Notes under the pieces: model-generated | What the model was told of the DNA's origin: nothing | The model's database searches: none | What the model saw: only the letters and a program-made list of their open reading frames with translations | Source: Saccharicrinis fermentans DSM 9555 = JCM 21142 | GTDB taxonomy: Bacteria > Bacteroidota > Bacteroidia > Bacteroidales > Marinilabiliaceae | NCBI RefSeq assembly: GCF_000517085.1 | Contig: NZ_KI912107.1 | Location: forward strand, 2,287,777 to 2,351,776 | Direction: 5' to 3' | DNA length: 64,000 nucleotides | Program-made: the position numbers and the translations under genes | Shown: positions 9,697 through 60,926 of the stretch, piece by piece | Layout: each line of letters starts with the position of its first letter | Numbering within the stretch: the stretch's first letter is position 1

Positions 9697-9790
9697 GTAT
9701 TTAGATTAAACTTTTTAATGGTCATATGGATCTGAAAATTTATTATTCACCAAATTTTATATTCAAAGGTGTTCATAAATACCGCGTATT
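9697..9790 (-). promoter_or_regulatory. Leader cassette A (upstream of thiD)
   Basis: Minus-strand order: AACACCTTTGAATATAAAAT, TTGGTGAATAATAAATTTTC, then CCATATGACCATTAAAA about 14 nt before the thiD ATG. The CTTTG and TAAATTTT words are 21 nt apart, resembling a Bacteroidota -33/-7 pair (TTTG...TAnnTTTG). The same blocks recur upstream of the GH29 gene (22986-23090) and the glycerate kinase (38215-38309). The last block alone recurs before the GH43-like/GH16/GH16 gene. Confidence 0.6.
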
Positions 9791-9810
9791 TCTTTTTCCT
9801 GTATATCTAG

Positions 9811-9837
9811 TTATTGTGCTGGCCATGCCAGTTTCAT
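9811..9837 (-). CDS. Micro-ORF A, MKLAWPAQ
   Basis: An 8-codon frame (ATG at 9837, TAA at 9811) beginning 6 nt after the thiE stop. Its start sequence ATGAAACTGGCATGGCCAG is the same as in micro-ORF B (22938-22985) and almost the same as in C (19236-19322). The DNA CTGGC-ATG-GCCAG is also a perfect palindrome, so this may be a protein-binding site rather than a peptide. Translation is not demonstrated. Confidence 0.35.
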   Translation of the reverse strand: MKLAWPAQ

Positions 9838-9843
9838 GTACAA

Positions 9844-12165: not shown

Positions 12166-13368
12166 CTACTCAATTGGGTCTGGATATACCTCATCAGGAT
12201 AAGCTGTCAGTGTATTTCCCGAATTTCCTTGTTCTATTAAACCGACGGGCAGATAAATATGTTTATTCCAATCAACACCCGGATAAATAGCACCCATAAC
12301 ACTTGCAGTCCTGCCACTTCTAACCAAATCAAACCAACGATCACCTTCACCTGCAAGCTCAACTCTTCGTTCGTACCAAAGCACATCTAAAGGACTTGAA
12401 AAGCGTTCCGGATATTTAGCAATCAAATCAGCTACGCCATCGAAGTCTCCGGCATTCATACCAACATGAAATTTTTTCGCAATAACAACATCATCTTCCA
12501 CACGATATACCGACTGAAAACTAGACTTAAGTATCACGTTATCAGCATCTCCAGCCTTTACTTTAACAGATCCCTGTACAAGGGTAGTTTTAATATCTGC
12601 TTCTTCAGGATAAGATGAAATATTGAACTGAGTTCCTAAAACCTGTACAGTATGATTATTTGAAATAACGATGAATGGACGTTTAGTATCTTTAGAGACT
12701 TCAAAATAGGCTTCTCCTGTCAGTTCAACAACTCTTTGTTTGTTGGTAAAGGAAACTGGGTAACGAAGTGTAGTTTCAGAATTCAACCACACTTTACTCT
12801 TATCTGACAACTCAATAAAAAATTCTCCTCCTCTGGGAATCTTGAGAGTATTATAAACTAATTTATCTGTTTTTTGGTGGCCAGCAACATAAAACAAGCC
12901 TTCCTCGGACTGTTGCAGTAAAGTTTGCCCTTGCTGCACCTTTATAGCAGACTTTGTTGTCAAACTTTTAGTTGTACCATCCTGTAATATTAATATGGCT
13001 TTTTGCTTACCTGATTTAGATTCTGAAGTAATATCTTTTGCAATCAGTTCATCAGACGTATGCCAATCTTTTTGGAGTACATACGTAACCGTGCTAAAAA
13101 TAAATAGAATAACAGCTGCCGCAGCAATACGTCTAAAAACAAGTTTCCTAAAGATTCTTGACCTGACCTTTTTTAAAGCAATTTGACTATCTACAGGCTT
13201 TTTTGAAAATGAGGAACCATATTTATGAAATGCTTCAGCATCATAAAAAAACTTAAAATGCTTTGCCGAAGCGTTTAACCATTTTTGCAATTCTCTATCT
13301 TCCTCTGCAGAGGTAGTTGAAAAGATTTTTTTCCAGATAATGTAAAAGTCGATATGTGATTTCTGCAT
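12166..13368 (-). CDS. Chimeric FecR anti-sigma / SusD C-terminus protein
   Basis: 400 residues made of two unrelated pieces in one frame. Residues 1-300 are a FecR-type anti-sigma regulator: a cytoplasmic N-part, a membrane helix at about 80-98, and the FecR domain IPRGGEFFIELSDKSKVWLN ... VELTGEAYFEVSKD ... VLGTQFNISSYPEE. From about residue 301 it becomes the C-terminus of a SusD/RagB glycan-binding lipoprotein: AGDFDGVADL, then VLWYERRVELAGEGDRWFDL and IYLPVGLIEQG. The join is near 12465. The end of FecR, all of SusC and most of SusD are absent. It sits 139 nt downstream of an ECF sigma gene, the usual FecR partner. The chimera probably cannot do the SusD job. Whether it still holds the sigma factor is open. 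Confidence 0.85.
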   Translation of the reverse strand: MQKSHIDFYIIWKKIFSTTSAEEDRELQKWLNASAKHFKFFYDAEAFHKYGSSFSKKPVDSQIALKKVRSRIFRKLVFRRIAAAAVILFIFSTVTYVLQKDWHTSDELIAKDITSESKSGKQKAILILQDGTTKSLTTKSAIKVQQGQTLLQQSEEGLFYVAGHQKTDKLVYNTLKIPRGGEFFIELSDKSKVWLNSETTLRYPVSFTNKQRVVELTGEAYFEVSKDTKRPFIVISNNHTVQVLGTQFNISSYPEEADIKTTLVQGSVKVKAGDADNVILKSSFQSVYRVEDDVVIAKKFHVGMNAGDFDGVADLIAKYPERFSSPLDVLWYERRVELAGEGDRWFDLVRSGRTASVMGAIYPGVDWNKHIYLPVGLIEQGNSGNTLTAYPDEVYPDPIE

Positions 13369-13507
13369 TTTGACTGTTTATTTTGTCGTATGACGACTAA
13401 CAAATCAAAAAGGACGACAAACATCTTAACTTTTTTATACATTTTTTAATAAACCCATACATGAGTGCAAATAACACAACATACTGCTGTAGCAAAATCC
13501 TCCTAAA

Positions 13508-14092
13508 TTACAATAAAAACAACAGGGCACAATCTGGAATAAGCACTCGCAACTTGCGTTTTCCTCTAGCAAGTTGCGTTTTTACAGTAGAAACCGAAAT
13601 TTCCAATTCGGCAGCCACTTCTTCTATCTTAAGCTGTTTATAATACCTCGCCTTAAATACTTTGGACATTTCAGGCGGCAATTTGTCAATAGCTTCTCTG
13701 AGCTGCTGTAAAGAATGGCTGTTATCAATTTCTTCATCTGAGATATTGATTACAGCTTGAATGCACATAAGTCTATATTTATCCTTCACCTTACGTGACT
13801 TCAAATAGTCAAAACAACGATTTCGAACCGCTGTAAAAAAATAAGTTTTAAGCGAAGTTCGTAATAGGAGCGACTTTCTATTTTCCCATAGCCAAACAAA
13901 AAAATCCTGCACAACATCCTCACTCACCTGATGATCGAACACATAACCTTCGGCAAAGCGAACTAATCTTTCATAGTATTCACTAAATATATTTTCAAAT
14001 ATCTTTCGATCTCCTTTTCTTAAGCCATTCAAATCTTCTTGACTTACATTAAACTGTCTATCATCGATTAAGACCTCCATAGCAGATATCAT
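13508..14092 (-). CDS. ECF-type RNA polymerase sigma factor
   Basis: About 190 residues with region 2 (FENIFSEYYERLVRFAEGYV, then VSEDVVQDFFVWLWENRKSL, TYFFTAVRNRCFDYLKSRKV) and region 4 (IDKLPPEMSKVFKARYYKQL, IEEVAAELEISVSTVKTQLA). It belongs to the Bacteroidota ECF group that works with FecR anti-sigma factors and TonB-linked receptors to switch on polysaccharide loci. The start could be ATG 14092 or ATG 14080; the latter (MEVLIDD) gives a cleaner N-terminus. The partner FecR downstream is the chimera with SusD, and no receptor gene is left beside them, so signalling may be orphaned. Confidence 0.92.
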   Translation of the reverse strand: MISAMEVLIDDRQFNVSQEDLNGLRKGDRKIFENIFSEYYERLVRFAEGYVFDHQVSEDVVQDFFVWLWENRKSLLLRTSLKTYFFTAVRNRCFDYLKSRKVKDKYRLMCIQAVINISDEEIDNSHSLQQLREAIDKLPPEMSKVFKARYYKQLKIEEVAAELEISVSTVKTQLARGKRKLRVLIPDCALLFLL

Positions 14093-14193
14093 TTAGTGAA
14101 ATTGCGCATTTTAAACCCATAAAATAATGACTATTACATCAAAACACAAACATATAATTGCATTGTCAAAAATAGTTTATTCTATTTACAAGC

Positions 14194-16392
14194 TCAGTAC
14201 ACCAATAACTTATTGGTGTACAAATCCTTACCAGTAACCAACTGAACAATAAAAGTCCCACTCATTAAATCCTCAATTGAAAACTTATTATCACCAACAG
14301 AGGCCTCTACACTCTTTTTTAGTCTACCATCTAAACCGATAATCTCTATCACCCCTTCTTTATTCGAAGAAACAGTGATCTCATGATCTGAGGGGTTTGG
14401 AAATATGTTGAGTTTATTTTTATGATACTTTAAATTTCGCACAGAAACATCATCTCCCATTTTAGCTCTCAACACAGCCGCTCCTACACCACCCGATTTT
14501 CCATCTGGAAAATTTACCTGAATAGTATTATTCGTTTTTAACAATGAACCGGGTACCTTAACTATTTTTGTAGTAGCATAAAAATCTCCAGTCAGTCTAT
14601 CGGCACAATCTTCAACAGGCGCAAGTAATTCAGTCCCGTTAAAATAAATTTTCACCTCTTTGCTATTCGCAGCCTTTCTGCTAATACCAATACGTAATTC
14701 GGCCTCCTTAATATATTTGTAATCCAATGTACGAATAGAAAAATTTCGACTACCAGAAAACTGCACACCAATATCTGAAGCACTGGAATAGTACAACTTA
14801 ACAGGTATTTCCTCCTCTTCAGGCACTTCTGATGAATAATTGACAAATACAGCTACCGACTCCTGTCCTCCAATCTTTAATGCAGACAAAGAAGCAACTG
14901 TTTCCTCAATCATTTCGGGTCTAAAGTCTTCTTTTCTCCTTAATCTTCTAATTGATATTTCACTGGGCGTTTCTACAAATTGCTCCACATGAACATCTAT
15001 TGCTCCCTTCTGATTACTTTGGTTATGAAACAATAATATCAGCTGACGATCCGACACAAAGGCATGATGCTGTATATCAGTATCATCGCAATAAGTCTCC
15101 ACTCTTCGTCCCTTTACTCCTTTAAAAAACTTATAAAAATCTATCAATCTCGATTCTCTCCAAACCGAACTGTTTTTGTCAAAATTTTCTTTTACCAACA
15201 AGCTTGAGTAATACTCGGTGTTCCAGCCAGCACTCTCCAATAAAATAAAAGGAACAGATTTTAATACCACATGGGGATGGTTCATATAAGTCATGGTATT
15301 GGCAATAGCACTATTCACCATAATAAAGTTATCTATATTCCGTTTTTCCATTTCATAGTCAAAACCCGAACCAGGAAAATACAGCTGTCCTAATTTCTCA
15401 AGTGCGTAGTCTCTATTATTGACATCGTTAATATAACCGCCATGTTCACTGGTTAAGTATTTAAAGTCATGTCCTGCATTATTACAAAAAGCGGCACATG
15501 CATCCAACACACCTTCCAATGGTAAACCGGAGTTAATGGATCCCACAAAGTCATTGGCATCGTCATCCCAATGCATATAATCGTAAGAATGAAAGGAATA
15601 AAAATCCAATTTAAAGTCGGTATTACTCATGAAATTAGTAATTCCGCCTAGGTTTTTATACTCATTTTTATGGTAATTACTAACCGAAGAACACGGACCT
15701 CCTATTTGTGTATTTACACCTTCAGCCACCACCTTTTCCTTGGTTTTCACATGCAGGTCAATAAAACGCTTATCATCAAAATGTTTCCAATGTGGCTCAT
15801 TCATCAACTCATAATAAGCAGGACGTTGAAAATCCGTATACCCATATTTTAATATAGTAGCGATTAACTCTGCTGCAGAGGCAGCATCCGCAGGGTATTT
15901 ATGTCCATTACTCCCCTCAACCGTATACAAGTCCATATAATCAGGATACGGATCTGAACTTTCGTGACACACCACATTCTGATTATCTCCGAATGCTGCT
16001 TGTAACATGTTCATCCCCTCATCATTCAACCCGGCTTTCTTGTTTTTAAAATAATCCAAATCGGTATACCCCTCTCTTGAAGCATCTTCTTTCAAAGAAT
16101 TACCCCAATATGTTTCACCTTTCACCATACTTAATTTTCGACCTACGGTTATACCTAGCTCATTGATATAGTAGTCGGCCATGTTTTCATCGTAATTCAA
16201 TACGCTTTTTTTAAGCTCTGCTGCAGTAGTGGCCAAATTAAAATATTTTGCACGACTTAACTCTTTGTGCCCTTCAATGCTTAAGGAAACAGTTGGGGCA
16301 ACATAAACACTAATCTGTTGTTGGGCAAAACCTGTCAAACCAAGGGTTGATGTTAACAGGATACCTGCAATTTTTTGTAGATTTTTTTTCAT
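14194..16392 (-). CDS. GH86-like beta-agarase/beta-porphyranase with T9SS tail
   Basis: 732 residues. After a signal peptide (ends near GFAQQQ) comes a catalytic domain like glycoside hydrolase family 86, enzymes that cut agarose or porphyran internally. The likely acid/base is E199 in YYELMNEPHWKH and the nucleophile E316 in KYLTSEHGGYIN. Other family-like stretches are DLYTVEGSNGHKYP and FYSFHSYDYMHWDDDAND. A beta-sandwich region follows, and the protein ends with a T9SS sorting domain (LNIFPNPSDHEITVSSNKEG ... KLLVY), so it should be exported to the surface. The gene follows the GH2 gene at 20 nt and is probably co-transcribed with it. Confidence 0.8.
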   Translation of the reverse strand: MKKNLQKIAGILLTSTLGLTGFAQQQISVYVAPTVSLSIEGHKELSRAKYFNLATTAAELKKSVLNYDENMADYYINELGITVGRKLSMVKGETYWGNSLKEDASREGYTDLDYFKNKKAGLNDEGMNMLQAAFGDNQNVVCHESSDPYPDYMDLYTVEGSNGHKYPADAASAAELIATILKYGYTDFQRPAYYELMNEPHWKHFDDKRFIDLHVKTKEKVVAEGVNTQIGGPCSSVSNYHKNEYKNLGGITNFMSNTDFKLDFYSFHSYDYMHWDDDANDFVGSINSGLPLEGVLDACAAFCNNAGHDFKYLTSEHGGYINDVNNRDYALEKLGQLYFPGSGFDYEMEKRNIDNFIMVNSAIANTMTYMNHPHVVLKSVPFILLESAGWNTEYYSSLLVKENFDKNSSVWRESRLIDFYKFFKGVKGRRVETYCDDTDIQHHAFVSDRQLILLFHNQSNQKGAIDVHVEQFVETPSEISIRRLRRKEDFRPEMIEETVASLSALKIGGQESVAVFVNYSSEVPEEEEIPVKLYYSSASDIGVQFSGSRNFSIRTLDYKYIKEAELRIGISRKAANSKEVKIYFNGTELLAPVEDCADRLTGDFYATTKIVKVPGSLLKTNNTIQVNFPDGKSGGVGAAVLRAKMGDDVSVRNLKYHKNKLNIFPNPSDHEITVSSNKEGVIEIIGLDGRLKKSVEASVGDNKFSIEDLMSGTFIVQLVTGKDLYTNKLLVY

Positions 16393-21380: not shown

Positions 21381-22892
21381 TTACTTTAACTCAATCTTAA
21401 TGGCAAAAGCAAAATCACCAGGCTTTTCTTTGGGCAATTCTACTGTAAGACCTGTTTCTGTCAACTCCCACGATAATTCTTCGCCGGTAGCCAGCATGGT
21501 CACCTTCCGGATTTCATCACTAAGTAAGTTTTCTTTTTTTGCAAGGCTATGAATCACCATATTGTTTTCAGGCCAATCCAGTGCAATTGCATATAAGTTT
21601 CCATCTTTGGTAGTAAAACGAATATCTTCGGCCACCGCATCCTTATTTTTATCCTCACTCAAATGACCTTCTTTAATTTCCTGAGGTCCCTCACCAAAAA
21701 CTTTCCAAGGACGAGTATCATAAATGGCCTCACCATTGGCTTTCAGCCACTGCCCCATTTCCAATAAACGTGTTTTAACCCCCTCAGGCATTACGCCATC
21801 GGCTTGAGGTGTAACATTTAACAAAACAGCACCATTTTTACTTACCACATCAACAAGAAAGTCAATTAACCTATTGGTTGATTTATATTTGGGATCTGAA
21901 ATATTACACCAAGCTTTCCAATCAATCGAGTCATCTGTTAACCAAGGAAATTCTTTTTTTTCTTTCATCCGAGAGCGTTCTAAATCAAGCACTGCACTAC
22001 CCTCAGCCATATCATGAAACTTATAGGTACACACTACATCTCTACCCCATTCTTGTGCTTTATTATAATAATTAGCTAAGAATTGTTTACGGTATTGTTC
22101 CTCAATAATATCCATTTTATTATCAAACCAAATAATATCCGGCTGATATTTATCCATCAACTCATTTAAACGATCTAACCACTCTTGGTGAAATTCTTTT
22201 TTCGGAGGATTGGGATAATCACCGGTAGCCATCACAAAAGAGCCTTCGGGAACATAAGGACCATATAGACCTGCATATTTTGGATCTCCGGCATCGGTAT
22301 TTTTATCCCATGTTGGATACCAAGCGTATAACCAATGACGGTGATAAGTAGCAATAAACTTCATCCCCTGCTTACGAACAGCTTTTTCCATTTCTCCAAC
22401 GATATCACGCTTAGGTCCCATATCCATTGCATCCCACTCTGTCAGGTCACTGTCCCACATGGCAAAACCATCTGCATGCTCTGCTACAGGACCGGCAAAC
22501 TGAGCACCCGATTCTTTAAAAAGCTTAGCCCATTCATCTGCATTAAACTTTTCTGCAGTGAACATTGGAATAAAATCTTTATATCCAAATTCTTTTAAAT
22601 TACCATAAGTCTCTTCATGATACTTACGAATAGGATTCCCCTTCTCATACATTCTAATGGAATACCATTCTGTTTCATGGGCAGGAACAGAATAAGGTCC
22701 CCAATGAAAATAAATACCAAACTTGGTATTTAACCACCATTCAGGCACTTTGTACTGTTTTAACGATTCCCAGTCAGCCGTATATTCTATTTTATCAGCT
22801 ACTGCTACTGCTTCTGTTTTCGATTTCTGCGGCTTTGTATTACAGGCAACTAATGCAGTCGCAGCAAAAAAAATCAATAAATATTTTTTCAT
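21381..22892 (-). CDS. GH29 alpha-L-fucosidase/alpha-L-galactosidase-like lipoprotein
   Basis: About 503 residues, starting at ATG 22892 (MKKYLLIFFAATALVAC), where a lipobox fits. A longer reading back to 22937 would add a non-signal extension. GH29 landmarks are WWLNTKFGIYFHWGPYSVPA, FAGPVAEHADGFAMWDSDL, and the nucleophile D257 in DIIWFDNKMD. GH29 enzymes release L-fucose, and related members on porphyran oligosaccharides release alpha-L-galactose. Beside GH86, GH16 and a sulfatase, an L-galactose target is likely but inferred. It is preceded by micro-ORF B and leader cassette B. Confidence 0.88.
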   Translation of the reverse strand: MKKYLLIFFAATALVACNTKPQKSKTEAVAVADKIEYTADWESLKQYKVPEWWLNTKFGIYFHWGPYSVPAHETEWYSIRMYEKGNPIRKYHEETYGNLKEFGYKDFIPMFTAEKFNADEWAKLFKESGAQFAGPVAEHADGFAMWDSDLTEWDAMDMGPKRDIVGEMEKAVRKQGMKFIATYHRHWLYAWYPTWDKNTDAGDPKYAGLYGPYVPEGSFVMATGDYPNPPKKEFHQEWLDRLNELMDKYQPDIIWFDNKMDIIEEQYRKQFLANYYNKAQEWGRDVVCTYKFHDMAEGSAVLDLERSRMKEKKEFPWLTDDSIDWKAWCNISDPKYKSTNRLIDFLVDVVSKNGAVLLNVTPQADGVMPEGVKTRLLEMGQWLKANGEAIYDTRPWKVFGEGPQEIKEGHLSEDKNKDAVAEDIRFTTKDGNLYAIALDWPENNMVIHSLAKKENLLSDEIRKVTMLATGEELSWELTETGLTVELPKEKPGDFAFAIKIELK

Positions 22893-22937
22893 ATGTTTAA
22901 AAATTAACAAAACCTCTCTGGCCGGTACAAATGTCAA

Positions 22938-31361: not shown

Positions 31362-33995
31362 ATGAAAACATTATCAATCTTATTTTTCACTATTTTCCTT
31401 GGTTTAACAGCCAACAGTCAAAACAAACCAAGCCCGCCTGATTCATGGCTCACCCCATTGTTATCAGATAGTGCTCATTTTATTTTAGAAAGCAAAGACA
31501 GTATTGTATGGGGTTGTGCACCTATTTACGACGATGAAGGAAAAGTACATGTTTATTACTCCACCTGGAAAAAAGAAGACAACTGGCTTATCCACAGCAA
31601 AATAGCGCACGCAGTAGCCGATCACCCGGAGGGACCTTATAAAAAACTAGGTATTATATTAGAAGGTAGAAAGGGAAAATGGGATGCCAACACCATCCAT
31701 AACCCCAGTATCTATAGAGTAGATGGTAAGTATGTTTTATTGTATATCGGTAACGATACTACCCAACAAGATAATTGGCGTGCCAAAGCTAAATCAGCCA
31801 ACACACAAAGAGTAGGAATGGCTATCGCTGATAATCCTTACGGTCCTTGGAAACGATTTGACAAACCCATGATTGATGTCTCACCAGATACCATGGCCTG
31901 GGATGGCTATTGTACGGTAAATCCGGGCTTTTTAAAACATCCCAATGGCGAATATTGGATATATTACCGCAGTTGGGACAGAAGAAACGACGACCGCCGA
32001 AAAACAGGCGTAGCCATGGCTAAAAATCTCACAGGACCATATGTAAAATATAAAAACAACCCCATCATTGATTTTCCAGAAAGAGGAGGGCAAACGGAAG
32101 ACCCTTATTTTTTCTTCTATAAGAACAAATTTCACTGTTTGATCAGAGATATGGGTAATTACGATTGGTTGAGTGGGTTATATCTGGAATCTGATGATGG
32201 TTTAAACTGGGGCCCCTATTATCGTAGTCATCATAAAGGCGCTCATTATTTACCTGTCGACAAAAAAGCCCGTTATGAACGTGTTCAAGTACTTTTTAGA
32301 AATGGAGAACCAGAATACCTTTTTAACGCCATTTTACGTGAAGGCAGAAAACACAGTGGTGCGGTACTAAAAATTAACATGCCTGAGGTTGACAACAAAC
32401 TACCACCTGCTCCCCTGGGTTTTAAATGGGTAAAAAACAAAAAGTTTTCAGATGAATTTAATGGAACAGAACTAGATACAAATATTTGGCATCAACGCTC
32501 TCCTTTTTGGAAACACGGCAGACCACCTGCCACATTTCGTGACTATAGTGTATCCGTCAAGGATGGCTATATGCAAATCAAAAACTCAGTATTAACAGGA
32601 GATAACAAATACAATATTGCTGGTGGAGCCGTGGCTTCGAAAGCTATGGATGCTCATTATGGTTATTATGAGTGCCGCATGAAAGCCTCTAGCATATCTA
32701 TGTCCTCCACATTCTGGCTAAAAAATTTACCTCAAAAAGAAGGATGCACCCATAATCGACAAGAGTTAGATATTGTTGAAGTTGTTGGCAAGCGTAAAAC
32801 AGGCCACGATTTTAATCATATACTCCACGCCAACTCTCATTACCTATATTTTGATTGTGATGGTGAAAAACAAAGCAAATCAGTTGGCGGAAATTGTCCA
32901 ATTACGCCTGCTGCCAACGAAGCCTTTCACACTTATGGCTGCTGGTGGAAAGATGCCAATACACTGTTATTTTATGTGGATGGAGAATACCGTTTTACCA
33001 TACATCCCAGTACCCAATTTAATAACAAACCTTTTAGCAGACCCATGTATATGCACATGGTAACAGAAACCTACAATTGGGAAAGCCCTCCAACACCTGA
33101 AGAATTAAATAATGACAAGATAAATACAACATATTACGACTGGGTGCGCGCATACAAACTGGTACCTATTACCAAAACAAACAGTGAAGGGCTCACCAAG
33201 CCAAAAAAATTTTACAAAGACTCTGTTGATTTCAGTAATGCTCCCAAACGCATCAATCATAAATATCCATTATCAGATCAAAAAAACAAAAAAAAATGGA
33301 AGATGCTCAAGGACTACTCTGACGAATTTAACGACGACACCTTGGATATTAGCAAATGGTATCCCAATAACCCAGGCTGGAAAGGAAGAGCACCCACCTA
33401 TTTTCATGGCTCCAATGTCAGTCTAGAAGGCGGTGAACTAATCATGCAAATCAATCAGCATGGAGATGAAACACTGCCAGAAGGATATACCCATTCTGCT
33501 GGTTTTATCAAAAGTAAAAAGAAAATTCTCTATGGTTACATCGAAGCCCGCTTAAAACCCAACAACTCACCTTGGGTAACAGGTTTTTGGATGACCAATG
33601 TAAGCAAAGACTGGTGGACTGAAATTGACATATGCGAAAACTGTCCCGGCGTAGCGGACAATCGCCACGACTTAAACTCTAACCTGCATGTTTTTAGAGC
33701 ACCCAAAGACAAAGGTGATGTGAAAGAACACTTTAGTAGAAATGCCAAATACTACATTCCTTTTGAACTCCAGGATGATTACCACACCTGGGGTCTTGAA
33801 TGGAACAAAGACTACATTCGTTTCTATCTGGATGGTGTTCTTTTTCGTGAAGCACCCAACACCCACTGGCATCAGCCTCTGGAAATCAACTTGAATAACG
33901 AATCTAACAAATGGTTTGGTGCCTTGCCCGATGACAATCGATTAGACGAGCTCTACAAAGTAGATTATGTAAGAGTTTGGCAGCAAAAACAATAA
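31362..33995 (+). CDS. Three-domain enzyme: GH43-like beta-propeller + GH16 + GH16
   Basis: 877 residues with a signal peptide. Residues about 25-340 form a five-bladed propeller of the GH43/GH117 type (VWGCAPIYDDEGKVHVYYST, ADNPYGPWKRFDKPMIDVSP, ERGGQTEDPYFFFYKNKFHC). Residues about 345-620 are a GH16 domain with intact ELDIVE (E468, D470, E473). Residues about 650-877 are a second, divergent GH16 with EIDICE (E754, D756, E759). All three appear catalytically equipped. The architecture would let one chain attack the polymer interior and trim ends. No T9SS tail, so a periplasmic place is likely. The gene is 15 nt upstream of the Asp-box protein gene, probably one operon. Confidence 0.82.
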   Translation: MKTLSILFFTIFLGLTANSQNKPSPPDSWLTPLLSDSAHFILESKDSIVWGCAPIYDDEGKVHVYYSTWKKEDNWLIHSKIAHAVADHPEGPYKKLGIILEGRKGKWDANTIHNPSIYRVDGKYVLLYIGNDTTQQDNWRAKAKSANTQRVGMAIADNPYGPWKRFDKPMIDVSPDTMAWDGYCTVNPGFLKHPNGEYWIYYRSWDRRNDDRRKTGVAMAKNLTGPYVKYKNNPIIDFPERGGQTEDPYFFFYKNKFHCLIRDMGNYDWLSGLYLESDDGLNWGPYYRSHHKGAHYLPVDKKARYERVQVLFRNGEPEYLFNAILREGRKHSGAVLKINMPEVDNKLPPAPLGFKWVKNKKFSDEFNGTELDTNIWHQRSPFWKHGRPPATFRDYSVSVKDGYMQIKNSVLTGDNKYNIAGGAVASKAMDAHYGYYECRMKASSISMSSTFWLKNLPQKEGCTHNRQELDIVEVVGKRKTGHDFNHILHANSHYLYFDCDGEKQSKSVGGNCPITPAANEAFHTYGCWWKDANTLLFYVDGEYRFTIHPSTQFNNKPFSRPMYMHMVTETYNWESPPTPEELNNDKINTTYYDWVRAYKLVPITKTNSEGLTKPKKFYKDSVDFSNAPKRINHKYPLSDQKNKKKWKMLKDYSDEFNDDTLDISKWYPNNPGWKGRAPTYFHGSNVSLEGGELIMQINQHGDETLPEGYTHSAGFIKSKKKILYGYIEARLKPNNSPWVTGFWMTNVSKDWWTEIDICENCPGVADNRHDLNSNLHVFRAPKDKGDVKEHFSRNAKYYIPFELQDDYHTWGLEWNKDYIRFYLDGVLFREAPNTHWHQPLEINLNNESNKWFGALPDDNRLDELYKVDYVRVWQQKQ

Positions 33996-50805: not shown

Positions 50806-51621
50806 TTAATGTAAATTATTTTTTAAGTATGCCATCATTTCACAATTAATATCCCATTGATCGGCTACTTCTTTTTGTGTAAACGGAAGTCGCTGCATAT
50901 ATGGATATGGCCCAAACTCGGGGCAGACATAAAACACCTCTTCTCCTCGTTCTCTGGCCAAATTTACAATATGCTGCCACCAAGCCACAAAACGATCCAA
51001 GTTTGTTTTCCACTCTGGAGCAAAAGGGTAATTAACCTGGGCACTTTGGTCAAATCCCACCCGGGCGTGAATATACCTGCAATGCGGATATATCTTTTCC
51101 AAAACATGCTCCTGATCATACAATAAACTTTCGGAAACATTACAAAAATGAGAAAAGTCGGCATTCAATTGTAGATCCGGATATTTTTCAAGATAGGGCA
51201 GTAATCCAAATGCATGATGTGTAAACCGGCCACGATGTGTTTCGTGCACAAGCGGTATCCCCGTTTCTTCGGTAAACTGCCTACAGCTTTCTATCAGACT
51301 GCTATTATCTTTGAACGAAAAAAAATCTTTGCCTGTATGAGTATTTATAAATAAAGGCTTTAACGAAGCTAAGAATCTTAAGCGCCTCAACATTCGTTCA
51401 CGATAGTCCTCCACACTTTCATCTTTCGGTGGTAACCATTGTTGCGCAATAAAAATAAGACCTGTATTATCCAGCGTTTCCTTCAATTCCTTTTCAAAAT
51501 CAGGGTTAGGAGTAACATTCATTTCTACACCATCATATCCGGCAGACATTACTTTGTTTATGAACATCTTGGGCATCAAGCTCTCACTTCCCCAAAAAGC
51601 ACAAATATATTTTATATCCAT
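50806..51621 (-). CDS. Sugar phosphate isomerase/epimerase-like TIM barrel
   Basis: 271 residues of the AP-endonuclease-2-like (xylose-isomerase-like) TIM barrel family. Metal-site residues are expected at E in VHETHRGRFTHH, D and H in LNADFSHFCNV, H in YIHARVGF, and E in VCPEFGPYPYM. Family members isomerise or epimerise sugars or their phosphates in the cytoplasm, but the substrate cannot be told. It begins 11 nt after the stop of the desaturase-Rieske-reductase fusion gene and is probably co-transcribed with it. A role in processing the demethylated or unusual sugar is plausible. Confidence 0.8.
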   Translation of the reverse strand: MDIKYICAFWGSESLMPKMFINKVMSAGYDGVEMNVTPNPDFEKELKETLDNTGLIFIAQQWLPPKDESVEDYRERMLRRLRFLASLKPLFINTHTGKDFFSFKDNSSLIESCRQFTEETGIPLVHETHRGRFTHHAFGLLPYLEKYPDLQLNADFSHFCNVSESLLYDQEHVLEKIYPHCRYIHARVGFDQSAQVNYPFAPEWKTNLDRFVAWWQHIVNLARERGEEVFYVCPEFGPYPYMQRLPFTQKEVADQWDINCEMMAYLKNNLH

Positions 51622-51632
51622 CTTAATATCAG

Positions 51633-53891
51633 TTAAAATTCATCATAAGATATAACATCAGAAGACACTCCTTTGTTTTCAAGCATTTTTAAACAAGCTT
51701 TAATCATGTTCGGAGGACCACATAAGTAAAACTCTAATTCTGATAAATCTGTTCTTTTATTCAAATAGTTTTTTTCCACTACCTCATGAATAAAGCCTGT
51801 ATGCGAATTCCAATGATCAGAATCTTGGGGGGCTGACAGTGCAACATTAAAGGAAAAGTTTTCATGGCAGCTCTCCAATTCTTTAAAATAATCGTCGTAA
51901 TAAAGCTCTTGTAATGAACGAGCTCCATACCAATAGCTCACCTTTCTTTTTGAACGTCTGGTTTCCAATAAGTTAGATAAATGAGAACGCAAGGGAGCCA
52001 TCCCAGCTCCTCCACCGATATAAACCATTTCTTTTTCGCTTTCTTTCACATGAAAATCTCCGAATGGCCCGCTCACATACACCAAATCACCCTGTTTCAA
52101 ATTAAACACAAAAGAAGAACCAACACCAGCCTTTACCTTTTTTCCTGAAGGTGGAGTAGCAATCCTGACATTAAAAATCAGTTGATTTCCTTGGTCGGGA
52201 TTATTGGCCATAGAATAATTACGACGGGTTTTGGTATGATTGGATGCAAAATTTTCAAAGACACGTTCCTGTTCCCATGCAGAACGATATGGCTCTGAGA
52301 TATGCATTTCACTAAAGCGAATATGATAAGCCGGAATTTCAAGTTGTATATATTCACCGGCAGTAAAACTTAATCCCTTACCATTTACCGGCTCAAGTAC
52401 CAACTCCTTTATAAAAGTAGCTACATTATTATTGCGCACCACTTTACACTGAATACGATCTCCCTTATCATAACGATGGGCCGTATTTAAATTTAAATAA
52501 ACATGTCCATCCCTGGTTTTTACCTCATGGGTTGACAAGCCCAAACACACAGGCGGTCGTTGAACAGATCCATCTTCTATTTTAAAGCGTCCATTATGCT
52601 TGGCGCATTCTATTTGATTCCCTACAATCAATCCATCTGCTAAATGCGCGTTTCCATGCGTACAGATACCTTCGGTGGCATAATACTGATCACCCCCCAA
52701 TTTATATAAGGCAAAGGTTGCGTCCTGACAGTCCACTCGTACAACTTCATTAAGAACCATATCTCGCTCTTTACACACCTCTACCCAACCCGCCTCATCA
52801 GCATCTGCTCTATGAACGATCATAGATGTGGTAGCTTCCTCTACATGGGCATTTTGAGGAAGTTTTCGCTCTACAAAATAAGACGGATCTTTCACTTGTT
52901 TAAGAACTGCTGGAACAATTTCCTTAAAGGTTTCGATGATCCCATTATAAGCAGGTGGACAATCATATTTAATAAGCGCATGCAATTGCGGTAAAGCATG
53001 ATATGGAACCAGAGGAAACATATGATGTTCGATGTGATAATTCATATTCCAATATAAGAAACGATGAATCCTGTTCATATAAACAGTTCTACAATTCAAC
53101 CGGTGATCTAAAACATTTTCTGACAATCCGGCATGTTGGGTTAATCCATAAACAGGCATCAGCCAGGAACCAAAAATAACAGGAAGACCAATAAACATAA
53201 TAGGTAACGGGGTAGCCAAAAAGATAGACATCAAGATGACAACCAAATAAATAGCCAAATAAATACGGGCCTTTAAAATTACTTTTTCATGTTCATATTC
53301 TGGCAAATAAGTAGCTACTTCCTTATCTATTTTACCGCTTGCATGAATCCATATTTTGCGCATTTCACTGGGCATCGCTTTTAACCCCCAAAAATTAAGA
53401 ATAATACCAAGTATGTCAGGCGGACGAGGAACAGATATCTCCGGATCACGGCCGCGAACCAATGTATCGCTATGATGCCTAGTATGACTGTAACGCCATA
53501 CCGTAGACTGACGAAAGACCATAAACGAAGCAATCTCATATAAAACATTGTTCATCCAATCGGACTTAAAAGCGGTACCATGACTAGATTCGTGCCAACG
53601 AGAATCTGAAGTAGAAGCGTACAAAACACTATAGGCCAGATAAGGCAATAGCACCCACCAACTTCCCCAAAATACAACTGTTAAAATGGCAAAACCAACC
53701 ATTAGTCCAAACCAAATCAAAGTATCCCGAATTGCGGGACCATTTTTTCTTTGCAGTAATTCGATCATTTTTTCTCGTGGAACTGGCGTGGTGTACCAAA
53801 CCGCCTCCGCCAAGCCTTTAGAAACAGCCAAACCAGACTCTTCTCCAAGCAAGGAGTAATCTCGTATTTGTTTAAAAGAATCATTCATCAC
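51633..53891 (-). CDS. Fatty-acid-desaturase-like oxygenase + Rieske + ferredoxin reductase fusion (MocD-MocE-MocF-like)
   Basis: 752 residues in three parts. First, a membrane di-iron domain (1-340) with His boxes H100-ESS-H104, H136-TR-HH140 and H286-IE-HH290, plus extra H253. Second, a Rieske [2Fe-2S] domain (about 365-470) with C410-T-H412 and C429-AK-H432. Third, an FAD/NAD reductase (about 480-752) with RNYS at 557-560, GDLVYVSGPFGDF, YIGGGAGMAPLRSH and CGPPNM, ending YDEF as in NqrF-type reductases. Rhizobial MocD, MocE and MocF, thought to demethylate the methylated inosamine rhizopine, are these three parts as separate proteins. Here they form one self-sufficient electron chain. In this galactan cluster O-demethylation of 6-O-methyl-galactose is a reasonable hypothesis. 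A lipid desaturase or hydroxylase remains possible. Confidence 0.85.
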   Translation of the reverse strand: MMNDSFKQIRDYSLLGEESGLAVSKGLAEAVWYTTPVPREKMIELLQRKNGPAIRDTLIWFGLMVGFAILTVVFWGSWWVLLPYLAYSVLYASTSDSRWHESSHGTAFKSDWMNNVLYEIASFMVFRQSTVWRYSHTRHHSDTLVRGRDPEISVPRPPDILGIILNFWGLKAMPSEMRKIWIHASGKIDKEVATYLPEYEHEKVILKARIYLAIYLVVILMSIFLATPLPIMFIGLPVIFGSWLMPVYGLTQHAGLSENVLDHRLNCRTVYMNRIHRFLYWNMNYHIEHHMFPLVPYHALPQLHALIKYDCPPAYNGIIETFKEIVPAVLKQVKDPSYFVERKLPQNAHVEEATTSMIVHRADADEAGWVEVCKERDMVLNEVVRVDCQDATFALYKLGGDQYYATEGICTHGNAHLADGLIVGNQIECAKHNGRFKIEDGSVQRPPVCLGLSTHEVKTRDGHVYLNLNTAHRYDKGDRIQCKVVRNNNVATFIKELVLEPVNGKGLSFTAGEYIQLEIPAYHIRFSEMHISEPYRSAWEQERVFENFASNHTKTRRNYSMANNPDQGNQLIFNVRIATPPSGKKVKAGVGSSFVFNLKQGDLVYVSGPFGDFHVKESEKEMVYIGGGAGMAPLRSHLSNLLETRRSKRKVSYWYGARSLQELYYDDYFKELESCHENFSFNVALSAPQDSDHWNSHTGFIHEVVEKNYLNKRTDLSELEFYLCGPPNMIKACLKMLENKGVSSDVISYDEF

Positions 53892-54017: not shown

Positions 54018-54341
54018 ATGAAACGTTTTGGACAAATAATCAAACTGAAAGAAGAAGGCATTAAAAAATATATCGAATACCATGCGAATCCCTGGCCCTT
54101 AGTCAACGCAAAATTAAAAGAGGCTCATATAGAACGGTATTCAATATTTAGGAAGGACAATATATTATTTGCCTATTTTGAATACTCCGGTACAAATTAT
54201 CAAAAAGACATGGAGCTTATTGCTGCAGATCCCACAACACGCAAATGGTGGGATATTGTAAAACCGCTAATGGAGCCTATAGAAAGTAGATCCGAGGGAG
54301 AATTCTGGGCGGATATGGAAGAAATATTTCACTTGGATTAG
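54018..54341 (+). CDS. L-rhamnose mutarotase family protein
   Basis: 107 residues, the usual size for the RhaM/DUF718 family of sugar mutarotases that interconvert alpha and beta anomers. Family residues seen are MKRFGQIIKLKEEGIKKYIE (start), YHANPWPLVNAKL with the active-site His, YSIFRKDNILFAYFEY, and TRKWWDIVKPLMEP with the Trp pair. No rhamnose genes are near. L-galactose or L-fucose released by the GH29 enzymes would suit it better, which is inference. It diverges from the Moc-like fusion gene, with 126 nt between starts. Confidence 0.88.
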   Translation: MKRFGQIIKLKEEGIKKYIEYHANPWPLVNAKLKEAHIERYSIFRKDNILFAYFEYSGTNYQKDMELIAADPTTRKWWDIVKPLMEPIESRSEGEFWADMEEIFHLD

Positions 54342-54941: not shown

Positions 54942-57404
54942 TTATTCAGTCGCCACCAAAATTTCATTAGAAACAAGAGAGCCCGCTTTAGCTATTATCT
55001 TTATCTCTCCTGCCTTTTGGGTACTCTGAATCAATAACAATGCTTTTCCGTTATGGGTAACAATCTGATTTGATTTATGAGGCTGCACATTTCGGTCCCA
55101 TCCATTATCCACACCAATAAGAACACCTTCTCCCTCAATTTCAAACACCAATTGCATTTTTTTATCCGGCACCAAGTCACCATTTCCGTTGGTCAATTCA
55201 GCTTCCACATGCACCACATCATAACCATTGGCTTTCATCGTTTTTCTATCTGCGTTAAGCTTAATTTTCGAAACCCATTTGGCCGTTTTCAGTGAATACA
55301 CACACGTTTCTTTGTCTCCATCCTTTCCAATTGCTTTTATTTCACCTTCGTGATAAGGCACCAAATACTTAACAATGTGATCTTCAAAGTCGTTGGGACT
55401 TTTAACCCCATAACTTTCACCATTAACAAACAGCTCCACTTCAGGAGAATTAGAATAAACTTCTACAAAAACCTCGTCCCCCTTCTCATAATTCCAGGTA
55501 GGCTCCACATCTTCAAACAACCATTTGTCTAACCAAAATCGAACCCTATTATCCACCCATTTTCCATCTTCAAATATCCATTGCGCTTTTTTTGCATGTT
55601 TGGTTGCCACATAGATAGATGGCTCATCATTCCAAAGTGTTTTATAAAAATGTCCTCTGGGGGTATAAAAACCTGCAAAGTCCATCAGAGAAATCTCTAA
55701 ACCTTTCCAGGGAAACGGTCCCGACTCTCCCAAATAAGCGATACCAGTCCATATAAAAATGCCTGCCACAAAATCTCTATCTATGGCATCTTTCCATTCC
55801 TGATAAGTACCCCAATTTTCTGATCCATATATGAACCTATTCGGATAATTCTTATGATCCTCATCATAATTTACCGCCCTATAATTATAGCCCATCACGT
55901 CGGGTACATCAAAATACCCGGTCATATTTCCTGCTTTAGGTAATACACCTCCAGCGGTTACATAACGTGTAGTATCCACCTCTTTAATCCATCTTTTTAT
56001 TTCTTCCGCCGTCTCTTTCAGTTCATCTCTACCATCGCCCGTCTCCTCCACCAAAACCTGATTCCCAAGACCTTGATTACTTTGCTCCATTTTGTAATAA
56101 TACGGATAAGTCCATTCTATCTCATTACCCATACTCCACATAATTATAGAGGGATGGTTTCGCGAAGAACGAACCATATCTTTCACATCTTGTTCTGCCC
56201 ACTCCTCATAGATATCTCCATATCCGGTTTTTAAGGCCGGTCGCATGTCTTTTGCAAAACGAGAAGTAATCCACTTATCTTTATTTTTACGCCACTCATC
56301 TAACGCTTCGTTGATAACAACAAAACCCATCACATCACAAAGCTTTAACAACCCGGGATCTGCAGGGTTATGTGACATACGAATGGCATTCACTCCAATA
56401 TCTTTCAAGCCCTGTAGTCTACGCTTCCAAACATCTTTGATAAAAACACCACCCACAGCACCAGCATCATGATGTAAGCAAACGCCTTTTAGCTTTAGGT
56501 TTTTTCCATTCAAAAAGAATCCTTTATTGGCATCAAACCTAAAGGTTCGAACCCCAAACTCAACCTGGTAGTCATCTAACCATTTACTTCCTGCATACAC
56601 CTGAACATTAGCCGTATACATATCAGTATGAGCAATATCCCAAAGTTTTGGTTTAAATACATTCACTGGCAACGCCAGGGTGTCAATACCTGAAACCACC
56701 GCTCTCTGACTACTACTTCCCACAACTTTTCCACTTTTATCTTTGATAGATACCCGCACGGTAAGTTTCTGTTTTGAGGTGGACTTAATTACCGCAAAAG
56801 TTTTTACAACAGCCTTCTTTGAACTGACCTCAGGGGTTTCAACCCAAGCTCCAAACTGAGGCACATATGCCTTAGAAGTGGTTATTAATCGTACATTACG
56901 ATAGATACCAGAACCAGTATACCAACGAGAATCTGCATAATTAGAATGATCGACTTTTACAACCACAGTATTTTCAGTTCCGTATTTTAGGTAAGGAGTC
57001 AGTTCATAGCCAAACACACTATAGCCATAGGGCCGTTTTCCTAAAAAATGACCATTAAGCCACACTTCTGAATGATGGTAAATCCCATCAAACTCAATAA
57101 AAGTGAGTTTATCCTTTGATTCCTCCGGAACAATAAATGTTTTTCTGTACCATCCAATACCTGTTGGTAAAAAACCCGTTGAACCAGATGTATTTTGGGT
57201 AGTATAATTTTGCTCGATGGACCAATCATGTGGCAAGTTTAAAACACGCCAACACTCATCATTAAAATCAACTGACTTCGCTTCTGGCGTATCTCCCAAA
57301 TTGAATTTCCAACCAAAATTAAAATCTTCCACAGAACGCGGCGATTGCGCATTTAGTGCAATCAAAAAAACAAATAACAAAATTGCTGTAGATATACCTT
57401 TCAT
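54942..57404 (-). CDS. GH2 beta-galactosidase (third copy)
   Basis: 820 residues with a signal peptide (ALNAQS) and no lipobox, so probably periplasmic. GH2 domain order: sugar-binding (FNFGWKFNLGDTPEAKSVDF, TGIGWYRKTFIVP), Ig-like, TIM barrel with acid/base E428 (IIMWSMGNEIEWTY) and nucleophile E529 (FIYGSENWGTYQEW), then beta domains. It is closer in layout and motifs to the 838-residue GH2 at 16413 than to the one at 28581. The stop lies at the edge of an ISAon1 remnant. Divergent gene order places the AraC regulator just upstream on the same strand, 183 nt away. Confidence 0.88.
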   Translation of the reverse strand: MKGISTAILLFVFLIALNAQSPRSVEDFNFGWKFNLGDTPEAKSVDFNDECWRVLNLPHDWSIEQNYTTQNTSGSTGFLPTGIGWYRKTFIVPEESKDKLTFIEFDGIYHHSEVWLNGHFLGKRPYGYSVFGYELTPYLKYGTENTVVVKVDHSNYADSRWYTGSGIYRNVRLITTSKAYVPQFGAWVETPEVSSKKAVVKTFAVIKSTSKQKLTVRVSIKDKSGKVVGSSSQRAVVSGIDTLALPVNVFKPKLWDIAHTDMYTANVQVYAGSKWLDDYQVEFGVRTFRFDANKGFFLNGKNLKLKGVCLHHDAGAVGGVFIKDVWKRRLQGLKDIGVNAIRMSHNPADPGLLKLCDVMGFVVINEALDEWRKNKDKWITSRFAKDMRPALKTGYGDIYEEWAEQDVKDMVRSSRNHPSIIMWSMGNEIEWTYPYYYKMEQSNQGLGNQVLVEETGDGRDELKETAEEIKRWIKEVDTTRYVTAGGVLPKAGNMTGYFDVPDVMGYNYRAVNYDEDHKNYPNRFIYGSENWGTYQEWKDAIDRDFVAGIFIWTGIAYLGESGPFPWKGLEISLMDFAGFYTPRGHFYKTLWNDEPSIYVATKHAKKAQWIFEDGKWVDNRVRFWLDKWLFEDVEPTWNYEKGDEVFVEVYSNSPEVELFVNGESYGVKSPNDFEDHIVKYLVPYHEGEIKAIGKDGDKETCVYSLKTAKWVSKIKLNADRKTMKANGYDVVHVEAELTNGNGDLVPDKKMQLVFEIEGEGVLIGVDNGWDRNVQPHKSNQIVTHNGKALLLIQSTQKAGEIKIIAKAGSLVSNEILVATE

Positions 57405-57586: not shown

Positions 57587-58456
57587 CTATACTTTTTTAT
57601 AATTAGCTCTATATTCCAAAGGAGAAACTCCACTAATAGCTTTAAAACACTGATTAAAATAGGCCACAGAGCTAAAACCACATTCAAAACCAACTTGGTT
57701 AGACGTAAGAGAAGTATTTATAAGCAGTTGCTGCGCAAAGTCAATACGCGTTTCTTTAACAAATTGCGAAAATGTTTTATGGGTTACTTTTTTAAAAAAA
57801 CGACAAAAACTACTTACATTCATTTCTGACAATTCAGCTGCCTTTTGCACACTCACATCCTCCATATAATTGTTCATCACATATTCATGTACTTTCTTTA
57901 TTCTAACAGATTTTGTAACAAAAATACTATCAAAATAAGCTTTCGAAACAATGGGATCCCAATGTCCTTTCTCAAATAAATCTAATATTTTAATCAAATT
58001 CAACAATCGGTCCACCCCACTATACGACGGAAAATCACAAATCAAATTCATAATTTCAACAGATTCATTTTTGGGTGCATATCTTAACCCAAATTTTGCA
58101 GCATTCAGCAACGTTTGTATCGATTTCATTTCGGGCAATCCGGCAAAACGAGTACCAAATATGGATCGATCAAACTGAAGGTAAACAGATTCACAAGTCT
58201 CATTATTATCCTTCTCAAAAAATACGGGATCAGAAAACCAGGCATGCGGAATATTACCCCCAATTAACACCAGATCACCCACTGCAAACTTGCTGGTGTT
58301 ATCCCCAATCACTCTTGTTCCATACCCTTTTGTTATTAATAATAATTCAAATTCGTGATGGTAATGCCACGAGCGCTCAAAATATTTACTGGAATAGGTA
58401 CCAACAAAAAAGGACTTTCCCTTATCTAATTCTATTTTCTCAATATATGGAATCAT
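57587..58456 (-). CDS. AraC-family transcriptional regulator
   Basis: 289 residues: an N-terminal cupin-like effector domain (SWHYHHEFELLLITKGYGTR, VGDLVLIGGNIPHAWFSDPV) and a C-terminal double helix-turn-helix (about 190-289, VQKAAELSEMNVSSFCRFFK, LTSNQVGFECGFSSVAYFNQ). The family usually binds a sugar and activates neighbouring catabolic genes. It lies between the GH2 gene (same strand) and the galactokinase operon (divergent, 174 nt away), making both natural targets. Length and ends look complete. Confidence 0.92.
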   Translation of the reverse strand: MIPYIEKIELDKGKSFFVGTYSSKYFERSWHYHHEFELLLITKGYGTRVIGDNTSKFAVGDLVLIGGNIPHAWFSDPVFFEKDNNETCESVYLQFDRSIFGTRFAGLPEMKSIQTLLNAAKFGLRYAPKNESVEIMNLICDFPSYSGVDRLLNLIKILDLFEKGHWDPIVSKAYFDSIFVTKSVRIKKVHEYVMNNYMEDVSVQKAAELSEMNVSSFCRFFKKVTHKTFSQFVKETRIDFAQQLLINTSLTSNQVGFECGFSSVAYFNQCFKAISGVSPLEYRANYKKV

Positions 58457-59912: not shown

Positions 59913-60926
59913 ATGACAAAAAAAGAGGTGATAAAAATGGTGCTGGACGGTAAAAAACCGCCCTATGTGCCATGGGATTGTAAATTTACAATAGAAGCAC
60001 TTGAAAAAATGAAGGCCCATTACGGCCAGGATGTTGATGTGGAAGCCCTGGTAGATAACCACTTTATCAAATTGGGGCAATCCAGTGGCTTTAAAGTAGA
60101 CATAGGAAATAACCGAAAAAAAGACATCTTTGGGGTAACATGGGATATGACACTCGAAAAAGATATTGGCAACGTGGAAGGATTGGTTATTCCTGAACCA
60201 ACAATGGAGGGGTATGAGTTTCCTGATATCGAAAACCCCATGCTATACGAAGGAATAGAAGAAAAAATAGCCGCCAACAAAGACAAATTCGTACTTTATA
60301 GCATCGGCTTTAGCCTTTTTGAACGTTACTGGACATTACGAGGAATGGAAAATGCTTTCCTTGACTTTATGATGTATCCTGATTTTGTAAAAGATCTGTT
60401 ACGCAAGATAGCCGACTTTAACATTGCTGTAATTACCAATGTATGCGAACGCTATCCTGAAGTAGATGGTATTTATTTTGGTGACGACTGGGGCGCTCAA
60501 CAGGGCTTGATGATGGGCAAAGAAGTATGGATGGAGTTCTTGTACCCAGAATTAAAAAGGATGTACGCCAACACGAAGTCACACGGCAAATACCAATTGA
60601 TACACTCATGCGGCGATATAGCAGAGGTGATTCCTGAACTCATTGATGCTGGCGTTAACTCAATCAATCCCTTCCAGCCCGAAGTGCTGAATGTTGATGA
60701 GCTCTTGAATACTTACCGAGGTAAAGTTACATTTCACGGTGGCCTTTCCACGCAAAAAACATTGCCCTATGGCACTGTTCAAGACGTAAAAGACGAAACA
60801 ATGCACTTATTGGAATTGGGTAAGGATGGCAGTTATATTTTCTGTCCGTCCCATGCCACTGAAGGAGATACGCCCATTGAAAACATTGTGGCCTTTATCG
60901 ACTTAATAAAAGCACAAAAAAGATAG
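59913..60926 (+). CDS. URO-D superfamily protein, MtaA-like methyltransferase type
   Basis: 337 residues of the uroporphyrinogen decarboxylase fold. It has H231-S-C233 (YQLIHSCGDIAEVIP) and C311 (YIFCPSHATEGDTP). This is the H-x-C...C zinc site of corrinoid methyltransferases such as MtaA and not a feature of the haem enzyme HemE. Other parts are YIGGFSL-like LYSIGFSLFERYWTLRG and VDGIYFGDDWGAQQGLMMG. Such proteins are common in sugar-catabolic loci and their reaction is often unknown. Being next to a sugar kinase it is unlikely to serve haem synthesis. A methyl-transfer step on a methylated sugar is possible, though no corrinoid protein is near. Confidence 0.75.
   Translation: MTKKEVIKMVLDGKKPPYVPWDCKFTIEALEKMKAHYGQDVDVEALVDNHFIKLGQSSGFKVDIGNNRKKDIFGVTWDMTLEKDIGNVEGLVIPEPTMEGYEFPDIENPMLYEGIEEKIAANKDKFVLYSIGFSLFERYWTLRGMENAFLDFMMYPDFVKDLLRKIADFNIAVITNVCERYPEVDGIYFGDDWGAQQGLMMGKEVWMEFLYPELKRMYANTKSHGKYQLIHSCGDIAEVIPELIDAGVNSINPFQPEVLNVDELLNTYRGKVTFHGGLSTQKTLPYGTVQDVKDETMHLLELGKDGSYIFCPSHATEGDTPIENIVAFIDLIKAQKR

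Follow-up and report, generated by a model that had tools for sequence, protein, structure and literature searches.

A one-chain diiron oxygenase-Rieske-reductase protein in a porphyran locus of Saccharicrinis fermentans, a candidate O-demethylase for methylated algal sugars

The fusion protein

The 64,000-nucleotide stretch of Saccharicrinis fermentans DSM 9555 analyzed here (contig NZ_KI912107.1, positions 2,287,777 to 2,351,776; hereafter the window) is a porphyran locus, and on its minus strand (51633-53891) it encodes a 752-residue three-part fusion of a MocD-like membrane diiron oxygenase, a MocE-like Rieske ferredoxin, and an NqrF-type FAD/NADH reductase. The open reading frame (ORF) starts with a GTG codon at position 53891, the second codon being ATG. 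Judged from its sequence and its relatives, the fusion is probably an O-demethylase that acts on a methylated algal sugar without separate redox partners. A preliminary description of the gene had proposed such a role, based on a supposed union of the rhizobial proteins MocD, MocE, and MocF and on the absence of a cytochrome P450 from the window.

All three parts are encoded on the minus strand. The D part (residues 1-345; 52857-53891) carries ten invariant histidines and matches the Pfam family FA_desaturase (residues 77-319, E 7.1e-34, 118 bits), the E part (residues 363-475; 52467-52805) matches Rieske (residues 369-447, E 3e-15), and the F part (residues 477-752; 51636-52463) matches FAD_binding_6 (residues 549-614, E 2.5e-5) and NAD_binding_1 (residues 625-733, E 1.8e-17). 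The family p450 is absent among the Pfam families matched. MocE_fam_FeS is the best ferredoxin model for residues 369-467, with 101.5 bits against a cut-off of 136.15. In an alignment of 22 three-domain proteins, i.e., the fusion of the window and 21 fetched relatives, the histidines H100, H104, H136, H139, H140, H253, H263, H286, H289, and H290 of the D part, the Rieske ligands C410, H412, C429, and H432, and the reductase stretches N558-Y559-S560, G626-G630, and C724-G725-P726 are unchanged throughout, and the ligands of the D and E parts stay invariant once D-E forms lacking the reductase join the alignment (27 sequences). The Pfam domains and the invariant residues thus bear out the earlier description of a one-chain desaturase-Rieske-reductase with intact motifs.

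The identity of the third domain had to be revised. Residues 478-752 pass the curated NqrF model with 337.6 bits (cut-off 295) and cover positions 128-403 of its 405, and a separate protein of the same genome that is 47% identical to this stretch fits the whole NqrF model with 632 bits. NqrF is a subunit of the sodium-pumping NADH:quinone reductase (NQR), with which the fusion shares the FAD/NADH module. The first 127 model positions, which in NqrF hold a membrane helix and a ferredoxin domain, are unmatched in the fusion and have the Rieske domain and the diiron oxygenase in their place, and NQR genes are not among its scanned neighbors. In a rhizobial moc locus, D and E are accompanied by a reductase of the Pyr_redox_2/Reductase_C type, and one sampled locus with split genes has the same type; the fusion chain is therefore MocD-like, MocE-like, and NqrF-type rather than MocD-E-F, and the joining of a MocF is ruled out, the reductase of the fusion being of the NqrF/FNR type.

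A structural model of the D part (residues 1-352) reached a predicted local distance difference test score (pLDDT) of 88.6 and a predicted template modeling score (pTM) of 0.85. The model of the full-length fusion (pLDDT 81.9, pTM 0.53) leaves the packing of the domains unsure, its reductase part matching NqrF structures. Three solved structures matched the model of the D part at E <= 0.001, namely, the alkane monooxygenase FtAlkB and, from two FtsHi motor complexes of the chloroplast, one chain. FtAlkB (8sbb) has the membrane diiron fold in common with the D part (template modeling score 0.50-0.53) and differs from it in sequence (16% identity). Monooxygenases of the AlkB type act on hydrocarbons and use other redox partners.

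The porphyran locus

A double glycoside hydrolase family 16 (GH16) protein (31362-33995, plus strand) consists of a beta-porphyranase-like domain (residues 345-604), nearest to the beta-porphyranase 4awd, and a 6-O-methyl-beta-porphyranase-like domain (residues 618-876), nearest to 8ep4/8ew1. The latter is 63.7% identical to 8ep4 and has kept the diagnostic Gly132 as well as Glu145. The structure 8ep4 represents BpGH16C, an endo-6-O-methyl-beta-porphyranase in which Gly132 leaves space for the methyl group (PMC12316285). The window likely encodes a 6-O-methyl-porphyranase. Further members of the locus are a porphyranase-like protein with BPA_C, Porphyrn_cat_1, and a Por secretion tail (14194-16392, minus strand), a GH29 protein (21381-22937, minus strand) closest to 7snk/7ljj, which is BpGH29, an exo-alpha-L-galactosidase from the porphyran locus of Bacteroides plebeius, and a GH2 protein (54942-57404, minus strand) that among solved chains comes closest to 5t9a (721 bits), known as GH2C and encoded in an agarose locus. 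The rest of the window also holds one sulfatase, and there are two GH29 genes in all. Since these GH16, GH29, and GH2 proteins are relatives of porphyran and agarose enzymes, the locus should be able to release 6-O-methyl-galactose.

The fusion is followed on its own strand, 11 bp downstream, by a xylose isomerase-like TIM-barrel gene (50806-51621), whose product matched none of the solved chains by sequence at E <= 0.01. Divergent from the fusion is a gene for an L-rhamnose mutarotase-family protein (54018-54341, plus strand). Beyond the GH2 gene lie an AraC-family regulator (57587-58456, minus strand), whose identity to the AraC regulators of P450 loci is 27-32% (weak evidence in so common a family), a galactokinase that passes TIGR00131 (58631-59830, plus strand), and a URO-D/MtaA-like protein with an HSCG motif (59913-60926, plus strand), relatives of which occur near fusion or D-E genes in the loci L031, L039, L041, and L050. 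MocR-like and binding-protein genes were not found among the scanned proteins of the window.

Distribution and gene neighborhoods of the fusion

The three-domain architecture recurs in several phyla. Scanning genome contigs yielded 251 relatives, 80 of which were kept, and intact fusions made up 21 of these 80 (20 as one ORF and that of L029 via an open frame). Among the remainder, L043 and L046 are truncated by contig ends, L045 and L087 are in pieces, and the five loci L049-L053 have D-E only. The titles of the fusion relatives name Bacteroidota, Verrucomicrobia, Acidobacteria, Kiritimatiellaeota, Lentisphaeraceae, and one gammaproteobacterium. Closer to home the gene is patchily held, with matches at E <= 1e-120 in 3 of 393 genomes of the order, own genome counted; within the genus it was found in just three of the nine genomes. 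In the phylogenetic tree, the 43 split D rows are grouped on one side (support 93/99), and fused and D-E rows are mixed, with six changes each (the row L046, labeled D-E, represents a fusion that runs off the end of its contig, and L142 and L009 are the same protein of genome G018). A single clean origin of the fusion was not borne out.

Neighborhoods were compared in 30 D-E(-F) loci including that of the window (L029 was dropped for want of a focal ORF), with gene positions shuffled 5,000 times within loci. A TIM-barrel cluster is present in 12 of the 30 and directly adjacent to the oxygenase gene in 9, against 2.1 expected; none of the 5,000 shuffles reached 9. In loci with split D, E, and reductase genes the cluster is found in 11 of 42 and is directly adjacent in none, the commonest distance being three genes. 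AraC clusters occur in 12 of the 30 loci (adjacent in 8). Relatives of URO-D (5/30; shuffles 0.24 for adjacency, 0.051 within two genes) and Gfo/Idh (6/30; 0.27 and 0.096) show no clear excess near the oxygenase, nor is there an excess of PanB-like genes in the split loci (9/42). The three flavobacterial fusion loci have a SusC-like/SusD-like pair in common, which was scanned in L035 only.

A family scan covered 139 of the 144 neighbors of at least 100 amino acids within three genes in 27 loci, five long ones having been dropped. AraC (11), AP_endonuc_2 (8), sulfatase (6), and Gfo/Idh/MocA (6) head the result, followed by aldo/keto reductase (5), aldose epimerase (4), the major facilitator superfamily (4), and URO-D (3). 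Of the 134 Pfam families found, the 25 commonest include none for lipids. Identity as a lipid desaturase was rejected on these neighborhoods and on the score for DesB, a lipid desaturase model of NCBIfam, which is 32.8 bits against a cut-off of 500. The FA_desaturase match and the fold shared with FtAlkB might suggest that a desaturase or hydroxylase of lipids or hydrocarbons has come to lie in a sugar locus by chance, but for the same two reasons this is very improbable.

The neighbors would also fit an enzyme that oxidizes a ring or deoxy carbon of a sugar or cyclitol without demethylation, i.e., a hydroxylase or desaturase whose product is handled by the TIM-barrel protein and dehydrogenases; the neighbors across loci, among them TIM barrels, Gfo/Idh/MocA proteins, aldo-keto reductases, and aldose epimerases, are compatible with such a pathway, and the Pfam and fold relatives of the fusion include desaturases and hydroxylases. 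Against this stand the genes shared with P450 O-demethylase sets and the homology to the D protein of a moc locus, both described below, and we regard ring oxidation as improbable.

P450 demethylase sets in the same genome and in relatives

The window indeed contains no P450, as had been described. The single P450 match of the genome lies outside it, 1.9 Mb away (L108), and is 65.4% identical (251/384) to PDB entry 6g5o. We take 6g5o/6g5q to be the Zobellia 6-O-methyl-galactose P450, the title of the structure being just "Cytochrome P450." A structure of a 6-O-methyl-galactose P450 exists (PMC10033563, where the code was not found in the text), and P450 sets of this kind are described as sugar demethylases (PMC10033563, PMC12316285). 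Next to the P450 gene lie genes for a ferredoxin (Fer2), a reductase (Pyr_redox_2/Reductase_C), and an AraC regulator, and family scans confirmed the P450-side genes. When this 20-kb stretch was compared by tblastn with the porphyran genes of the window, TIM barrel, alcohol dehydrogenase (ADH), and esterase, the sole relative that emerged was AraC. The notion that the organism has no P450 is ruled out by this set, and because the same genome carries it, the argument for an alternative where no P450 is seen fails. This comes close to a finding that the preliminary description itself had said would refute its idea.

The expected type of reaction is the same for the fusion and for the P450 6-O-methyl-D-galactose demethylases of Zobellia and Formosa, and in relatives the two systems have partner genes in common (TIM barrel, ADH, esterase, and AraC). 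The P450 system differs in using a heme P450 with separate redox partners (PMC10033563), whereas the fusion is one chain without a p450 match. It is the reductase of the P450 system that is of the MocF kind, the one beside the P450 of S. fermentans being 39% identical to the reductase of a moc locus (L135).

P450 sugar demethylase sets are connected with this family of oxygenases, or with genes that accompany it, by three gene links. In Labilibacter sediminis (L027, a contig that also belongs to genome G007), genes for a P450, a ferredoxin, a ferredoxin reductase, a TIM barrel, and the fusion are consecutive on one strand; the TIM-barrel gene (9165-9971) overlaps the over-long start of the fusion ORF, and its product is 41% identical to that of the window. 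In genome G065, a P450 (79%), a ferredoxin, and a reductase are followed by an AraC gene on the other strand and a TIM barrel 50% identical to that of the window, and the fusion was not found at E <= 1e-120. In genome G018 (L142:853-4350), a D-E oxygenase of 38% identity is followed by a zinc ADH, which matches FoADH (8h2a) over its full length with 697 bits, and by an esterase that shares 60% identity with the esterase next to the P450 of Flavicella; in G018 a P450 was not found at E <= 1e-40. PMC10033563 reports this ADH next to the P450 of porphyran users, and poorer growth on 6-O-methyl-galactose once the ADH is deleted. No second case of a D-E gene with ADH and esterase turned up in a family-wide search, in which the G018 D-E query (E <= 1e-50) matched 4 of 71 genomes, the other three matches being fusions.

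A co-occurrence search for the P450 covered 34 D-E(-F) rows from 31 distinct genomes (the pairs G007/G413, G005/G425, and G154/G430 appear identical). A P450 relative was found at E <= 1e-40 in 10 of the 34 rows (9 of the 31 genomes) and at an identity of at least 66% only in the genome of the window, Labilibacter, and Flavicella. Of the 71 genomes of the family, 4 have D-E(-F), 4 have the P450, and 2 have both. This overlap (hypergeometric 0.014) is confounded, because the 2 genomes belong to one genus and are thus kin. With a P450 in 10 of the 34 rows and an overlap of 2 in the family, the two systems often occur apart.

As the genome has this P450 set, 6-O-methyl-galactose would not call for the fusion as well, unless the two systems differ in conditions or substrate. 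One possibility is that the P450 does all the demethylation in this strain and that the fusion is a passenger gene of little effect, in line with its restriction to three genomes of the genus; the intact motifs of so patchily held a gene and the conserved pairing with the TIM barrel make this quite improbable. A far more serious alternative is the same chemistry on another substrate, the P450 taking 6-O-methyl-D-galactose and the fusion, e.g., methylated L-galactose or 2-O- or 4-O-methyl galactose. Other methyl sugars occur in red-algal galactans. The contiguity of P450 and fusion in Labilibacter argues against simple redundancy, fusion homologs exist outside seaweed niches, and the mutarotase-family gene adjoins the fusion, all of which, together with the P450 set itself, would suit this division of labor. 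On the other side, the genome has only one TIM-barrel match (E <= 1e-15), of a kind also found in P450 loci, which suggests a single pathway, and the D-E oxygenase of G018 is accompanied by the ADH of the 6-O-methyl-galactose locus. On balance we consider a separate substrate a substantial possibility, yet less likely than not.

Comparison with moc loci

The genes mocDEF of Rhizobium, Sinorhizobium, and Phyllobacterium act in rhizopine catabolism, and one rhizopine is O-methylated (PMC10107442). In Phyllobacterium zundukense (L135), genes for D, E, and the reductase lie beside an aminotransferase-type regulator, a Gfo/Idh/MocA protein, and a binding protein, and upstream of D (L135:8895-8929) there are two moc-box matches exactly 13 bp apart with 1 and 0 mismatches, the spacing published for rhizopine-inducible promoters (PMC10107442). 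The locus has four moc-box matches at no more than one mismatch, against a chance mean of 0.80, and 5 of 200 shuffles reach four. The D part of the fusion is 55% identical (188/339) to the D protein of this locus and the E parts are homologous; of the four annotated rhizobial loci with D, E, and reductase genes, two have a TIM-barrel gene nearby. The systems differ in that the moc proteins are separate and use a Pyr_redox_2/Reductase_C reductase, whereas the fusion is one chain with an NqrF-type reductase.

A PanB-like hydroxymethyltransferase gene adjoins split D-E-reductase genes in L135 (11744-13485, plus PurU), where both come after the D-E-reductase group, and in L134 (11852-12652) and L136 (10669-11487). 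PurU and the methylene-folate-using PanB kind suit one-carbon release, and the arrangement perhaps reflects one-carbon handling.

Corrinoid gene sets

Corrinoid genes lie on both sides of the P450-TIM-fusion block of Labilibacter sediminis (L027:63-6142 and 12452-15559). They encode two corrinoid proteins, a URO-D protein, two CobW proteins, an activation-domain protein, RACo, and a relative of MtaB (533 bits). S. fermentans has a corrinoid protein, URO-D, CobW, an activator, and RACo at L131:8807-14611 (C3, approximately 169-175 kb), its URO-D being 83% identical to that of Labilibacter; the MtaB relative had no match in the four stretches of this genome that were compared. P450, fusion, and corrinoid genes thus form one block of approximately 15.5 kb in Labilibacter and lie in three separate places in the genome of the window. 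RACo matches were found in 10 of 24 genomes searched. The demethylation of galactose in anaerobes has not been elucidated, and its mechanism is expected to be discovered (PMC12316285, 2025). The Labilibacter set with its MtaB relative is a candidate for oxygen-independent demethylation, to be taken as a lead and not as a result.

Proposed function

From the domain order, the intact motifs, the neighborhoods, and the genes shared with P450 demethylase sets, we infer that the fusion is a membrane-bound, NADH- and oxygen-dependent monooxygenase. Electrons would pass from NADH via the FAD of the NqrF-type module and the Rieske cluster to a diiron centre in the desaturase-like histidine boxes, where the O-methyl carbon of a methylated monosaccharide would be hydroxylated, and the unstable product would decay to the free sugar and formaldehyde. 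In S. fermentans, the fusion would most likely act on a methylated galactose that the porphyran enzymes encoded around it release, as a second system besides the P450, with the galactokinase and the TIM-barrel partner at hand nearby. As to the substrate, 6-O-methyl-D-galactose is the leading candidate, a choice that we make tentatively.

The role as sugar O-demethylase that had been proposed earlier is thus retained on partly new grounds: the 55% identity to a moc-locus D protein, the absence of a lipid context, the putative 6-O-methyl-porphyranase, and the three gene links to P450 sets speak for it, and the rationale of a missing P450 has been lost. Several observations weigh against the proposed function. 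The genome already has a P450 set for 6-O-methyl-galactose chemistry, and 24 of the 34 searched D-E(-F) rows are without a P450 match at E <= 1e-40. The link in G018 is a single case with 38% identity and a branch of 4.18, which makes the placement of this protein in the tree unsure, and no FoADH match was found in the genome of S. fermentans at E <= 1e-90. Within the locus, an opposite-strand gene separates the fusion-TIM pair from GH2, and no formaldehyde-handling gene is among the scanned neighbors in the window, the rest of the genome not having been searched for such genes. That MocDEF perform the demethylation step for the rhizopine 3-O-methyl-scyllo-inosamine is presumed here, following the preliminary description. 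The word "demethyl" is absent from the paper searched (PMC10107442). Finally, fusions occur, according to their titles, in taxa such as Acidobacteria, where porphyran is unexpected, and the family as a whole is therefore unlikely to be specific for 6-O-methyl-galactose.

Implications

In two of the nine genomes of the genus, those of the window and of Labilibacter sediminis, there might even be chemically unrelated routes for removing the methyl group of a seaweed sugar within one genome, namely, the P450, the fusion, and possibly an oxygen-independent corrinoid methyltransferase, a combination that we consider less likely than not. Among the matches listed from open-license PubMed Central papers, judged by title and the start of the abstract, such a fusion is undescribed as a sugar demethylase. 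If the proposed function is true, the fusion would be, as far as these searches show, the first oxygenase other than a P450 to act on a methylated sugar from algal polysaccharides.

Methyl ethers stand in the way of using sugars that are abundant in algae. A second, self-contained type of demethylase across several phyla would help to explain the use of methylated glycans without a P450, and it would give one-gene tools for demethylating sugars. The corrinoid set would, if its proposed role is true, be a candidate for the anaerobic demethylation mechanism awaited in PMC12316285, and the gene block of Labilibacter makes this question testable.

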